64,000 nt of DNA from Aureispira sp. CCB-QB1 (GCA_945870185.1 CAMBRK010000008.1:1-64000); one strand, 5' to 3'; positions 54,393 through 60,874 are shown, counted from the stretch's first letter. Program-made: numbers and translations. The notes: a model not told the origin generated them from the sequence alone.

Positions 54393-54950
54393 ATGATCAT
54401 CGTGGCAGACTGGATCCTAAAAATCAAAACCAACGAAAACGAGGCACTTAAAGAGATTTATATGCTTTGCAGGAAGGACTGTCTGACCTGGCTACAAAAG
54501 GAGTATATGTGTACCGAAGAAGATGCCCTGGATATCTTTCAGATGACCATGATGATCTTGTTTGATAATGTGATCACAGGAAAATTGACATCATTATCTT
54601 CCAATATCAAGACCTATGTCTTTGGAATCGCCAGAAACAAAGCCTTAGAACTACATCGTAGCCGAAAAAATATAGTATCTGATGATTTCATATCTATGGT
54701 AGTTTCTTACGTAATGGACGAAAACGATGATGTCACCGAAGACCAACTCAGTAAAGTGTGTCATTCATTGGACGAATTGGGCGATCCTTGTAAAACAGTA
54801 CTGATACAATATTATTATCATGATAAAAGTATGGACGAAATCACTACTTTGATGAGCTACAAAAATGCGGATACCACCAAAAATCAGAAATACAAGTGCC
54901 TCAAAAGGTTACAAAACATCTATTTTAGTCATACATCTAAAAGTCTTTAA
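54393..54950 (+). CDS. ECF-type RNA polymerase sigma factor
   Basis: 185 aa, usual for sigma-70 ECF factors. Region 2 (~28-95): CLTWLQKEYMCTEEDALDIFQMTMMILFDN and YVFGIARNKALELHRSRK, the -10 recognition helix. Region 4 (~125-178): LDELGDPCKTVLIQYYYHDKSMDEITTLMSYKNADTTKNQKYKCLKRLQ. It is followed after two bases by a membrane-anchored anti-sigma-like gene and then a CHAT protease gene, an unusual three-gene operon. Confidence 0.88.
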   Translation: MIIVADWILKIKTNENEALKEIYMLCRKDCLTWLQKEYMCTEEDALDIFQMTMMILFDNVITGKLTSLSSNIKTYVFGIARNKALELHRSRKNIVSDDFISMVVSYVMDENDDVTEDQLSKVCHSLDELGDPCKTVLIQYYYHDKSMDEITTLMSYKNADTTKNQKYKCLKRLQNIYFSHTSKSL

Positions 54951-54952
54951 AA

Positions 54953-55600
54953 TTGAGAAGCCCGAAGGAAGATATCGAATGGTTGGATCAGTATATCAAA
55001 GGTACTTTGAATGCTACAGAAATTCAGGCACTTGAAGCGCGTTTATCTGTTGAGTCAGACTTAAAAAATGATTTGGAAGTTTTGAAAGTAATGCGACAAG
55101 GCATGCGCGCTGAGGTATTGGCTGATAAACTGGAGATGATGCGAGGATGGGAGGAGGAGATGGTGGAAAATAGAGGATCTAATGGAGGTGAATCAAAATC
55201 TGCTTTGATCATTTCTATAAAAAAATGGATGGCAGCGGCTAGTATCGTATTCTTATTGGGAGCAGGATGGTGGTGGATAGCAAAAGAAAGTAAGCACCAA
55301 CAATATGCCTGGAAAGATGAAGAATTTTATAAATATATACTACATCAAACCGAAAGAAGTAATGAAATAGATAAAGATCAACAAAAAACACTGGCATACA
55401 ATCTATTTACAGCAAAACATTTTTCTGAAGCTAAACCAAAACTGGAGTCTCTTTGGGTAAATCAAAGGGATACTTTAGCTTATTTTTATTTAGGCATAAC
55501 TGAGGTGTCATTGGGTAATAAAGAAAAGGCAAAAGCTATTTTTAATGCTAGTGAACTTGTAAACTACCCAACAGCCGAGCTATTAAAACTATGCGAATAA
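54953..55600 (+). CDS. membrane anti-sigma-like protein with TPR-type periplasmic part
   Basis: 215 aa from a TTG start at 54953, two bases after the sigma gene; the TTG start gives a sensible head and no ATG fits. The cytoplasmic ~85 residues (IEWLDQYIKGTLNATEIQALEARLSVES) have the 'Y-x-x-G-x-L' plus helix pattern of Bacteroidota anti-sigma factors. One membrane segment follows (MAAASIVFLLGAGWWWIA, ~93-110). The outer part has helix pairs (QKTLAYNLFTAKHFSEAKPKL, FYLGITEVSLGNKEKAKAIF) of TPR type. No zinc-binding HxxxCxxC motif is seen, so binding of the sigma factor is inferred from position. It overlaps the CHAT gene by 10 bases. Confidence 0.75.
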   Translation: MRSPKEDIEWLDQYIKGTLNATEIQALEARLSVESDLKNDLEVLKVMRQGMRAEVLADKLEMMRGWEEEMVENRGSNGGESKSALIISIKKWMAAASIVFLLGAGWWWIAKESKHQQYAWKDEEFYKYILHQTERSNEIDKDQQKTLAYNLFTAKHFSEAKPKLESLWVNQRDTLAYFYLGITEVSLGNKEKAKAIFNASELVNYPTAELLKLCE

Positions 55601-58323
55601 TATATAATTTGTGTTTTATAATTAATTTCACATTGTTGTTGCAATGTAATGAAAAAAACGCTTTAAACTACCCAAGATTCTTATCATCACAAATACTTTC
55701 ATCTGATGTTGGGAAAAAAATAGATCGACTAATGAATCAAGATAGTATTCAAGATGCGAGTAAAATTTATGCTACCGAAAAAAAAAGGCTTGCCGAGGCA
55801 GAATATCATTATCTTACGTATAAACTCAATAAGAACATTTTTTATCACAACTACTTTAGTCCCTGTGATTCATTATCATTTGTGCCTTATAGTACTGCTG
55901 AATTGATATACAAATTGCTAAATGACTACTATACCAGGAATTCAATTCATGAAGAAAAGATATTAAAAAATACGATTTTAGATTATCTAACAAAAAATAA
56001 TAAAGATAATGTCCTTCGCGGTGAACTTTATGGCGAAATCGGGAGATATTACCTTAATGAAGGTAATAATCCTGATAGTTCAGATTATTACTTTACTATT
56101 GCTTTCAATATTTATGAGAAGAGTAGTATTATATCAAATCAACACTTTTTGCATGCTAGAAATTTAGTGTATTTGCAGTTTCCATTAAGAAAGGAATTAA
56201 AAGCATTGGCATATTCGGAAACATTAGGTAAAATGTGTAAATATTTTTCAAGTGCTCAGCCAAAAGAACTAATTTACTATTCGTTAAAAGCTTTTGTATT
56301 GGCAAGACTGGAAAAGAAAATGGAAAGTGATGTTGAATACAATAAAGCATTTAAACTGGCCAATAACTACCCTTGTACTTATCATCAGCAGGAGCTGTAT
56401 AAATTATACTTTTCTTCAAAAACAAACAATTCATCTGAATCTATTGATATTCTGAAGCTCAATGAATTGAATGAAATGGTACGACAATATGGAAACTTTT
56501 GTAATCTAGACAAAATAAAAGGTGAATACTATTTACTTAAAATAAATGATATTAAAAAGTCGGAAAAACTCTTGGAAGGTGCTTTTCATTATATTGTAAA
56601 CTCAAAGCCGTATAATGCACTGCAAGTTTATACTGTAATGTATGAGCTTTATTTTTGTTATATGTTGAATAAAAAGTATGAAAGTGCATTGGATGTAATA
56701 TACAGCCAAGAGAATCAATTGATTCCAATTAAAATTTGCAGGTTTAATCTGGACTCCGTTTTGATGCCAAATTTTTCTAAAAAAAACTTCCATTTCATCA
56801 CACTTGAATCTTTTGCTTCAGTGCTCAATCAAAAATACGAAGACTTAAAAAATGTCAACGATTTAAAATTAGCTGCATCTTTAATTTTAAAGGCTGATAG
56901 CATGATAATCAACGCGATGAATTCATTTGATGAAAATGTGATACATTCAGTCTTTAATTCTTCAAATTCTGTATATAATACCGGCGCAAAAATTTTTTAC
57001 AACTTGTATGAAAAATTTCATCACAGTGAATATCTATCAAAGTATATTTATATGATTGAAAAAAACAAAGATCGGATTTTGCTTAGGGATATCAACTTAA
57101 GAAAATTAGAATATTCAAATCTGAAAAATAAAGAAAAATATTTAAAACAAAAAATCGCATATTTTAAAACTTCTGGTATTTCTGATAGTTTGCTCTTCTT
57201 TATAAATAAATTGGAAAAATTTTATAAGGAAAATGCTACTTCAGAGTTGGCCAATTTTGCAATAAGTCAAAAAAGGATTTCTTTGGAAAACTGGCAAAAA
57301 AAAATTAATAACAAGACCATATTAGTTGACGTCAATAAAATTGACAATTTTTATTTTGTTTTCTATATGTCTGTCAATGAATCAGGCATTAGAATAGTAC
57401 AGAACGATTCTCTTTTACAGAACAATATAAGTGTTGTAAAAGATATACAATCAAAATATGATAAATCAATCAAAGCGGAAGATTACAATGAAGCTGCATA
57501 TCAGGTATATAAAATATTGTTTAGCGAGATCATTAGCAACTTCGAGACTGTCATCTATTCGGACTCTCCTTTTTTTTCAAGTCTAAACCCTGAAAGCCTT
57601 ACTGAGGATGGCATTTCATCCGACTCAAACTTCAATTCTTTAAATTACCTGATACATAATCAAGATTTTGAAAAAGTCCCGTCGTTTTTTCTATATTTTG
57701 AAAATAAAGATAATGTACTAAAATCAACGACAATAGTAAGCTTTCTTCATTCTGATGACGAGACTGTTGCTAGTAATAAAAACATACAAAAAGAACTACC
57801 TGGTAATATTGCTGAATTTAAAACATTAAATATTTTTTCTCAAAATCATATAAATTACAGTGGCAAAAAATGTTCAAAAGCCAACTTCTTAAATCAAAAT
57901 TACAATCAAACTGATATTTTACATATATCTATACATGGGTATTCTAATTCCAATAGTTTGCATGATCTTTACTTACTGTTCAGATCTGATGCAAAGCCAG
58001 ATACATTGTATGGTTATGAAATCATGAGATTAGATCAAACACCACCATTAGTGATATTATCTGCTTGTGAATCAGGCAAAGGAAAATTCAAAGATGGAGA
58101 AGGTAATTATAACTTAGCCAGATATTTTTTACACACTGGAAGCCACAGAATCATCCAATCCCTTTGGAACCTAGATGATTCTGCTGGATCCATTTTAATG
58201 AAATATTTTTATCAAAACCTTACAAACACCAGCCCATCAATTGCGCTAAAAGAGGCCAAATTAAAAGTACTTAAACATTTTAAAAACTTTGGTCATCCTT
58301 ATTTCTGGAGTGGAATGGTTTAA
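55591..58323 (+). CDS. TPR-CHAT caspase-like protease
   Basis: 910 aa. Residues ~1-20 form a signal sequence (FIINFTLLLQC, Cys19), possibly a lipoprotein although Gln before the Cys is not canonical. Residues ~70-500 are helical repeats of TPR type (GEIGRYYLNEGNNPDSSDYYF, LARLEKKMESDVEYNKAFKL). The C-terminal ~330 residues are a CHAT domain: TDILHISIHGYSNS with catalytic His782, PPLVILSACESGKGKF with Cys826, then FLHTGSHRIIQSLWNLDD. Both catalytic residues are present. Position after sigma and anti-sigma genes, with overlap, suggests it controls that pair by proteolysis. Substrate unknown. Confidence 0.85.
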   Translation: MRIIYNLCFIINFTLLLQCNEKNALNYPRFLSSQILSSDVGKKIDRLMNQDSIQDASKIYATEKKRLAEAEYHYLTYKLNKNIFYHNYFSPCDSLSFVPYSTAELIYKLLNDYYTRNSIHEEKILKNTILDYLTKNNKDNVLRGELYGEIGRYYLNEGNNPDSSDYYFTIAFNIYEKSSIISNQHFLHARNLVYLQFPLRKELKALAYSETLGKMCKYFSSAQPKELIYYSLKAFVLARLEKKMESDVEYNKAFKLANNYPCTYHQQELYKLYFSSKTNNSSESIDILKLNELNEMVRQYGNFCNLDKIKGEYYLLKINDIKKSEKLLEGAFHYIVNSKPYNALQVYTVMYELYFCYMLNKKYESALDVIYSQENQLIPIKICRFNLDSVLMPNFSKKNFHFITLESFASVLNQKYEDLKNVNDLKLAASLILKADSMIINAMNSFDENVIHSVFNSSNSVYNTGAKIFYNLYEKFHHSEYLSKYIYMIEKNKDRILLRDINLRKLEYSNLKNKEKYLKQKIAYFKTSGISDSLLFFINKLEKFYKENATSELANFAISQKRISLENWQKKINNKTILVDVNKIDNFYFVFYMSVNESGIRIVQNDSLLQNNISVVKDIQSKYDKSIKAEDYNEAAYQVYKILFSEIISNFETVIYSDSPFFSSLNPESLTEDGISSDSNFNSLNYLIHNQDFEKVPSFFLYFENKDNVLKSTTIVSFLHSDDETVASNKNIQKELPGNIAEFKTLNIFSQNHINYSGKKCSKANFLNQNYNQTDILHISIHGYSNSNSLHDLYLLFRSDAKPDTLYGYEIMRLDQTPPLVILSACESGKGKFKDGEGNYNLARYFLHTGSHRIIQSLWNLDDSAGSILMKYFYQNLTNTSPSIALKEAKLKVLKHFKNFGHPYFWSGMV

Positions 58324-60163: not shown

Positions 60164-60874
60164 TTAATAAAAAAGTCCGGTTGTTAAAAAAATGTCTTGA
60201 TTTTTCATTTTGACAGCTTTACCATTGGCGTTGGCCATATAATTACTGTAATTGTCTTCTGCTACGATAAATACGATACTATCTGATGAAAAGACATAAT
60301 TTTCCTTTTTGCCTGTACCCGTGATTTTGACGGTGTTATCGGATGTATTTGGGTCTGGTGCTGGTTGTTCTGATATGGTATCTTGTGGTTCATCCTGTAA
60401 ATTCAAAATTTCGTTTGTAGACTTAGCATGTTGCACATCTCTGTACTTTTGATAAATATATAGTAGGTAAAATCCTACAAGTAAGATCGAAACCGATGAA
60501 GCAATAATTAAAAAGTTAAAAAAAGCCGCCCAAGATATGTTGACTCCAAAAAGCCAAACCCAATACAAAAAACATGACGACTGACTGATCAAAATAGTAG
60601 TGAAAAGTAAAACAATTTCATATCCTACAGTCCATTTGTCTTTAATCTCATCGCTCAATAAATAATTAATCAAAACATAAAACAAACTACCAGAAGTAAA
60701 AATTACAACACCATAACCTGTTAAAATGCCATATTTAAAAGGATGTGAAAAGGAAGCTGTACCGAAGGGTTGAAATACAATCAAAATAAATGCAACGACC
60801 AAACTGATTCCTGCCAAAAATAATGTAAATTTCGAAACAGTGGACTTTGGATATGGTGTATTTAGAATAGGCAT
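60164..60874 (-). CDS. membrane LytTR-type regulator, C-terminally truncated
   Basis: 236 aa. Four membrane segments at ~17-150 (VVAFILIVFQPFGT, GYGVVIFTSGSLFYVLINYLL, VLLFTTILISQSSCFLYWVW, FLIIASSVSILLVGFYLLYI). A linker follows, and then the beginning of a LytTR DNA-binding domain at ~186 (KITGTGKKENYVFSSDSIVFIVAEDNYSNYM). The LytTR domain should be about 95-100 residues and hold RTSLxxIExxL and RxHRSYxVN motifs. Here only ~45 residues are present before a short tail (NQDIFLTTGLFY) and stop. DNA binding is therefore very unlikely; the gene looks like a decayed remnant upstream of the S41 gene. Confidence 0.65.
   Translation of the reverse strand: MPILNTPYPKSTVSKFTLFLAGISLVVAFILIVFQPFGTASFSHPFKYGILTGYGVVIFTSGSLFYVLINYLLSDEIKDKWTVGYEIVLLFTTILISQSSCFLYWVWLFGVNISWAAFFNFLIIASSVSILLVGFYLLYIYQKYRDVQHAKSTNEILNLQDEPQDTISEQPAPDPNTSDNTVKITGTGKKENYVFSSDSIVFIVAEDNYSNYMANANGKAVKMKNQDIFLTTGLFY

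Follow-up and report, generated by a model that had tools for sequence, protein, structure and literature searches.

A predicted envelope module of an ECF sigma factor, a membrane anti-sigma-like protein and an exported TPR-CHAT protein in Aureispira and its relatives

A 64,000-nucleotide stretch of Aureispira sp. CCB-QB1 (GCA_945870185.1 CAMBRK010000008.1:1-64000), hereafter the window, contains three plus-strand genes arranged head to tail, the first two separated by a gap of 2 bases and the last two overlapping by 10 bases (Table 1). They encode a divergent sigma factor of the extracytoplasmic function (ECF) type, an anti-sigma-like protein with a predicted membrane segment, and a predicted exported protein combining tetratricopeptide repeats (TPR) with a CHAT peptidase domain. 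The original prediction, made from this stretch of DNA, had proposed that the CHAT protease cleaves the anti-sigma protein and frees the sigma factor; the coordinates, strands, gap and overlap it gave for the three genes were all exact on recheck. It had also named a divergent LuxR-type gene as a possible controller, which proved not to be conserved beside related ECF genes. Since the gene upstream of ECF varies between loci, the LuxR gene looks incidental.

Table 1. Features of the three-gene locus, with positions counted from the first base of the window
Feature	Coordinates	Strand	Basis
ECF sigma factor, 185 aa, divergent subfamily	54393..54950	+	TIGR02937 E 5e-13; genus orthologues, 46-48% identity
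Anti-sigma-like protein, 215 aa, TTG start inferred	54953..55600	+	position after ECF gene, family TPR/zf-HC2 matches, positive-inside rule
Predicted membrane segment of anti-sigma-like protein, ~residues 91-109	55223..55279	+	hydropathy and alignment with relatives
TPR-CHAT protein, 910 aa, exported (predicted)	55591..58323	+	PF12770 E 8e-36; AF2 model versus Craspase TPR-CHAT
Export signal, lipobox-like LLQC, residues 1-19, possible lipoprotein	55591..55647	+	sequence; clearer lipoboxes in relatives
CHAT (caspase-fold) peptidase domain, residues 685-909	57643..58317	+	PF12770
Catalytic His782 codon	57934..57936	+	invariant 71/71
Catalytic Cys826 codon	58066..58068	+	invariant 71/71

The first gene product matches the sigma70-ECF model TIGR02937 at 49 bits, above the cut-off of 42.9, and Pfam Sigma70_r2 weakly (E 0.003). 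Orthologues were found in four other species of the genus.

The anti-sigma-like protein, encoded immediately downstream of the ECF gene in the window and in almost every relative, consists of a charged helical N-terminus, a single hydrophobic segment and a short TPR-like part. Its N-terminus carries the pattern YIKGTLNATEIQALEARL, which we take to resemble the opening helices of anti-sigma domains of the zf-HC2 type, minus the metal ligands. The window protein gave no significant match to an anti-sigma domain model and no match in a PDB sequence search. Its TPR character, part of the original description, is weak in this copy (E 0.06) and clear in the family, where 15 of 18 relatives match TPR models and two match the anti-sigma zinc finger zf-HC2; the membrane segment described with it was recovered. 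One membrane helix, a predicted N-in orientation and a gene lying directly after ECF are features of the class I type of membrane anti-sigma factor. The gene after ECF likewise encodes a single membrane segment in most of the loci where CHAT and ECF genes are linked, usually near residue 80.

The third protein scores 124.5 bits with the CHAT model, whose gathering cut-off is 24. His782 and Cys826 lie at the residues originally named and are invariant in all 71 homologues compared; by sequence, the cysteine-protease dyad is intact and proteolytic activity is predicted. The N-terminus, MRIIYNLCFIINFTLLLQC, contains an export signal ending in LLLQC, judged lipobox-like by eye, in agreement with the signal first noticed there; the protein is possibly a lipoprotein, and clearer lipoboxes occur in three relatives (L043, L046 and L051). 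An AlphaFold2 (AF2) model was of modest quality (mean predicted local distance difference test, pLDDT, 59). Its first 11 PDB structure matches were all Craspase TPR-CHAT chains (E 6e-7 to 3e-5), followed by human separase. As the TPR superhelix dominates the structural alignment, this similarity speaks for the overall architecture more than for the geometry of the active site. A second listing of structure matches covered the TPR region only (residues ~78-505), so that the missing CHAT folds there are uninformative, and a PDB sequence search with the CHAT protein gave no detectable match to any chain.

To place the trio in context, the CHAT protein was used to search 100 relatives, the neighbourhoods were retrieved and ECF genes were identified with a profile made from the linked loci. 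An unbiased linkage figure was derived from G013 and G025, two genomes from the same family that are close to complete and together hold 44 CHAT genes and 136 ECF-model matches (about 60-70 ECF and 20-24 CHAT genes per genome). An ECF gene lies within 3 kb of 26 of the 44 CHAT genes, so that most CHAT homologues there are linked, as against about 10% (~4-5 genes) expected from ECF density, a roughly sixfold enrichment (binomial p about 2e-15). Conversely, in the same two genomes, a CHAT neighbour accompanies 24 of 31 full-length divergent ECF genes (<67 bits) versus 4 of ~91 canonical ones, which indicates that CHAT goes with the divergent class of ECF. Across all loci with flanks, a set enriched for linked cases, 77 of 119 CHAT loci were linked: 33 tail-to-tail (the ends of the CHAT and anti-sigma genes facing), 23 divergent, 16 operon-like and 5 with CHAT first. 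The overlapping operon of the window is the tightest of these layouts, yet a minority form. The co-occurrence of the three families anticipated by the original prediction is thus conserved, whereas a fixed order of ECF, anti-sigma and CHAT is not. We consider it highly probable that the three genes work together.

Evidence from orthologues points the same way. Among the four genus orthologues of the window ECF, two keep a CHAT gene nearby in other orientations, divergent in one (L194, G003) and tail-to-tail in the other (L197, G006); in a more distant family relative (G033), CHAT is also tail-to-tail. That the genes stay close although their orientation changes argues that they are functionally linked. 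Within-genome Mantel tests across paralogous modules gave correlations between ECF and CHAT-domain distances of 0.66 in G013 and 0.65 in G025 (p 0.0005 each), comparable to those between ECF and anti-sigma distances (0.39 and 0.80, respectively). Because these tests were run inside one genome, species phylogeny is excluded as the cause, while block duplication could produce the correlation.

Linkage is seen as well in further families and orders of the class, and in named Cytophagales genomes. Of 44 CHAT genes in 40 stretches sampled from the phylum, 13 were linked, nine in the same order or class and four further out. The tail-to-tail form is found in Reichenbachiella faecimaris and in a Cytophagaceae metagenome-assembled genome (MAG), and in a MAG labelled Chloracidobacterium (L036) the order is CHAT, ECF, anti-sigma, with an anti-sigma N-terminus of the zinc-ligand type. 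In the phylum sample, CHAT genes encoding a C-terminal membrane helix were linked more often than those without (10/19 versus 3/25, p 0.007), an association that is slight within the family and is not relied on here. None of eight class relatives whose CHAT protein has an export signal without a C-terminal helix (L146-L153) has an ECF neighbour, and other CHAT classes therefore seem to exist.

Regarding the cellular compartment, topology was read from hydropathy and charge rather than with a dedicated predictor. The anti-sigma-like protein carries more net positive charge on the N-terminal side of its helix in 59 of 70 relatives, which by the positive-inside rule (N-in) places the C-terminal TPR part in the predicted periplasm. 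Nearly all CHAT relatives have an N-terminal signal and, in 66 of 85, positive charge follows the C-terminal helix (C-in), so that the TPR-CHAT body is likewise predicted to be periplasmic. In the window's clade this helix is missing, and the CHAT protein seems to be lipid-anchored or to have no anchor at all. The CHAT domain and the outer part of the anti-sigma protein are thus predicted to share one compartment, in keeping with the original prediction. An M50 site-2 protease of the RseP type is encoded in the same genome (E 4e-53).

Based on the adjacency seen in both directions, the co-inheritance of ECF and CHAT, the intact dyad, the TPR-CHAT fold similarity, the predicted shared compartment and the presence of an M50 protease, we propose an envelope module in which the exported CHAT protein acts as an activating site-1 protease on the anti-sigma protein. 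We infer that the cytoplasmic N-terminus of the anti-sigma-like protein would tether the ECF sigma factor to the inner membrane, with the single helix of the anti-sigma-like protein leading to a small periplasmic TPR domain. The TPR-CHAT protease would share the periplasm, held there by a lipid anchor or, as in the majority of relatives, by the C-terminal membrane helix. On sensing a signal through its TPR part, CHAT would cut the periplasmic part of the anti-sigma protein, and the RseP-type site-2 protease and cytosolic proteases would then degrade the inhibitor, freeing the sigma factor for a putative regulon. A proteolytic sigma switch at the envelope is plausible, and better supported than from the window sequence alone; for the specific role of CHAT as activating site-1 protease, we regard the case as evenly balanced.

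Four known systems stand nearest to this arrangement. In the type III-E CRISPR-associated CASP/Craspase system, comprising Csx29 (TPR-CHAT), Csx30 and CASP-sigma (PMC10028731, PMC9729208), a TPR-CHAT cysteine protease is likewise linked genetically with an ECF sigma factor and the inhibitor of that factor, and it provides the nearest solved folds to the window CHAT model. The window module differs in its exported proteins, in having a membrane anti-sigma in place of Csx30 and in showing no sign of an RNA trigger. No CRISPR-like direct repeats were found between positions 44 and 64 kb of the window, no whole-genome search for Cas or Cas7-11 having been made; given the lack of repeats nearby, we do not class the module as a CASP system, though it may work similarly. 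For ECF54, a review records CHAT-domain proteins in the genetic context and proposes proteolysis with no anti-sigma factor (PMC8999054). Compared by reported context rather than by group models, the two share CHAT neighbours and a proposed proteolytic control, whereas nearly every linked ECF here has a membrane anti-sigma-like partner.

Regulated intramembrane proteolysis of RpoE-RseA by DegS and RseP supplies the site-1 precedent (PMC8103513), with a single-pass anti-sigma factor, a periplasmic site-1 step (here proposed) and a site-2 protease (here the M50 candidate). Unlike DegS, the candidate for the site-1 step is a cysteine protease of the caspase fold that includes a TPR sensor, its gene lies beside its own sigma pair, and there are many paralogous modules per genome. 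Finally, comparative genomics has described an EACC2-caspase system coupled to an ECF sigma factor and a TPR protein (PMC8195603), thus also with a caspase-superfamily peptidase, ECF sigma and TPR protein in one neighbourhood; the domain set differs (EACC2 and DUF1822), and no comparable membrane anti-sigma module is described in the parts of that study consulted. Beyond these precedents, we found no literature on exported CHAT proteins with membrane anti-sigma factors in Bacteroidota, subscription-only papers, including the main ECF classification, lying outside the scope of the search.

Several observations weigh against the proposed activation by CHAT. About 40% of CHAT genes have no ECF neighbour, and co-inheritance could be explained by linkage alone. 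In the genus, G004 and G009 (loci L195 and L196) retain ECF and anti-sigma orthologues with no CHAT adjacent in the stretch examined, which argues that the pair can do without CHAT. The window CHAT lacks the C-terminal membrane anchor present in most relatives, and the outer part of the window anti-sigma is shorter than in genus relatives. The structure model of the window anti-sigma was poor (pLDDT 60), and a fold search with it returned weak TPR matches only and no anti-sigma domain.

Pairs of the same orthologous group without an adjacent CHAT would also be expected if CHAT were an output, induced by the sigma factor to cleave other envelope or foreign proteins for defence, cell death or remodelling, with the TPR domain of the anti-sigma sensing a different signal. 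Several CHAT copies beside one pair (three at L041, two at L101) and the defence context of the sigma factor in type III-E systems (PMC10028731) fit this explanation as well. In the commonest layout, however, CHAT is convergent with the pair and hence has its own promoter, and no common ECF-type promoter signal rose above shuffles upstream of ECF or CHAT genes, a weak test with ECFs this divergent. We regard this explanation as somewhat unlikely. The presence of TPR parts in both CHAT and anti-sigma, together with a papain-type protease between the two genes at one family locus, could instead point to a non-cleaving co-sensor, with CHAT contacting the anti-sigma through TPR in the manner of RseB on RseA and altering its stability or the access of another site-1 protease. 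Pure binding would not need the dyad that is invariant in 71 of 71 homologues, and this role appears improbable.

The sign of regulation is beyond genomics, and all the data for a functional link would fit equally well a CHAT protease that restrains the pathway, either by clipping the anti-sigma or the sigma pathway to end the response or by maturing the anti-sigma into an inhibitory form. The cleavages in DegS/RseA and Csx29/Csx30, by contrast, relieve inhibition (PMC10028731, PMC8103513), and we consider a restraining role more doubtful still. Chance neighbourhood in genomes so rich in both families is scarcely credible in view of the enrichment, which is confined to the divergent ECF class and persists through rearrangement in congeners.

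The ECF, anti-sigma and CHAT trio is found dozens of times in related bacteria, and this recurrence points to a family of envelope signalling systems, triggered by proteases, that has yet to be studied. More broadly, and tentatively, it is possible that Bacteroidia possess a large class of periplasmic CHAT site-1 proteases of the caspase fold, around twenty per genome in some species and the majority each with a divergent ECF and a TPR-bearing membrane anti-sigma of its own, forming parallel CRISPR-independent transcription switches across the envelope. If so, a large unexplained caspase-like expansion in Bacteroidota would gain a function, a class of ECF/anti-sigma pairs would gain its missing site-1 protease, and the CRISPR CASP switch would be part of a wider protease-sigma theme also active at the cell envelope.

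Further loci showed features of their own. A second module in the same genome (contig C64, L101:1935-13061) forms one operon of ECF, anti-sigma, an exported papain-type C1 protease (PF00112, E 2e-11), a large MORN/TPR/CHAT gene and a further TPR/CHAT-type gene; this type of module is conserved in a congener (L199). At L197:6825-8357 (G006), the ECF match contains an internal TAA and the anti-sigma frame is seemingly broken, the neighbouring CHAT being intact, and at L196 a convergent gene for a 1534-aa exported protein occupies the place of CHAT. In Cytophagales-type loci (L037-L041), an exported protein of large size (as much as 1300-1500 aa within the stretch) is encoded divergently from ECF, ~90-115 bases apart, and is a possible regulon member. 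A membrane glycosyltransferase-like gene with the motif GVHLFDWDEVNFAEI ends 26-90 bases before the ECF gene in three genomes (L071, L099 and L129). In the window itself, two genes are possibly broken: one for a membrane protein seemingly ending within a LytTR-like domain (60164-60874) and a short beta-barrel fragment weakly matching PF13568 (52987-53520).
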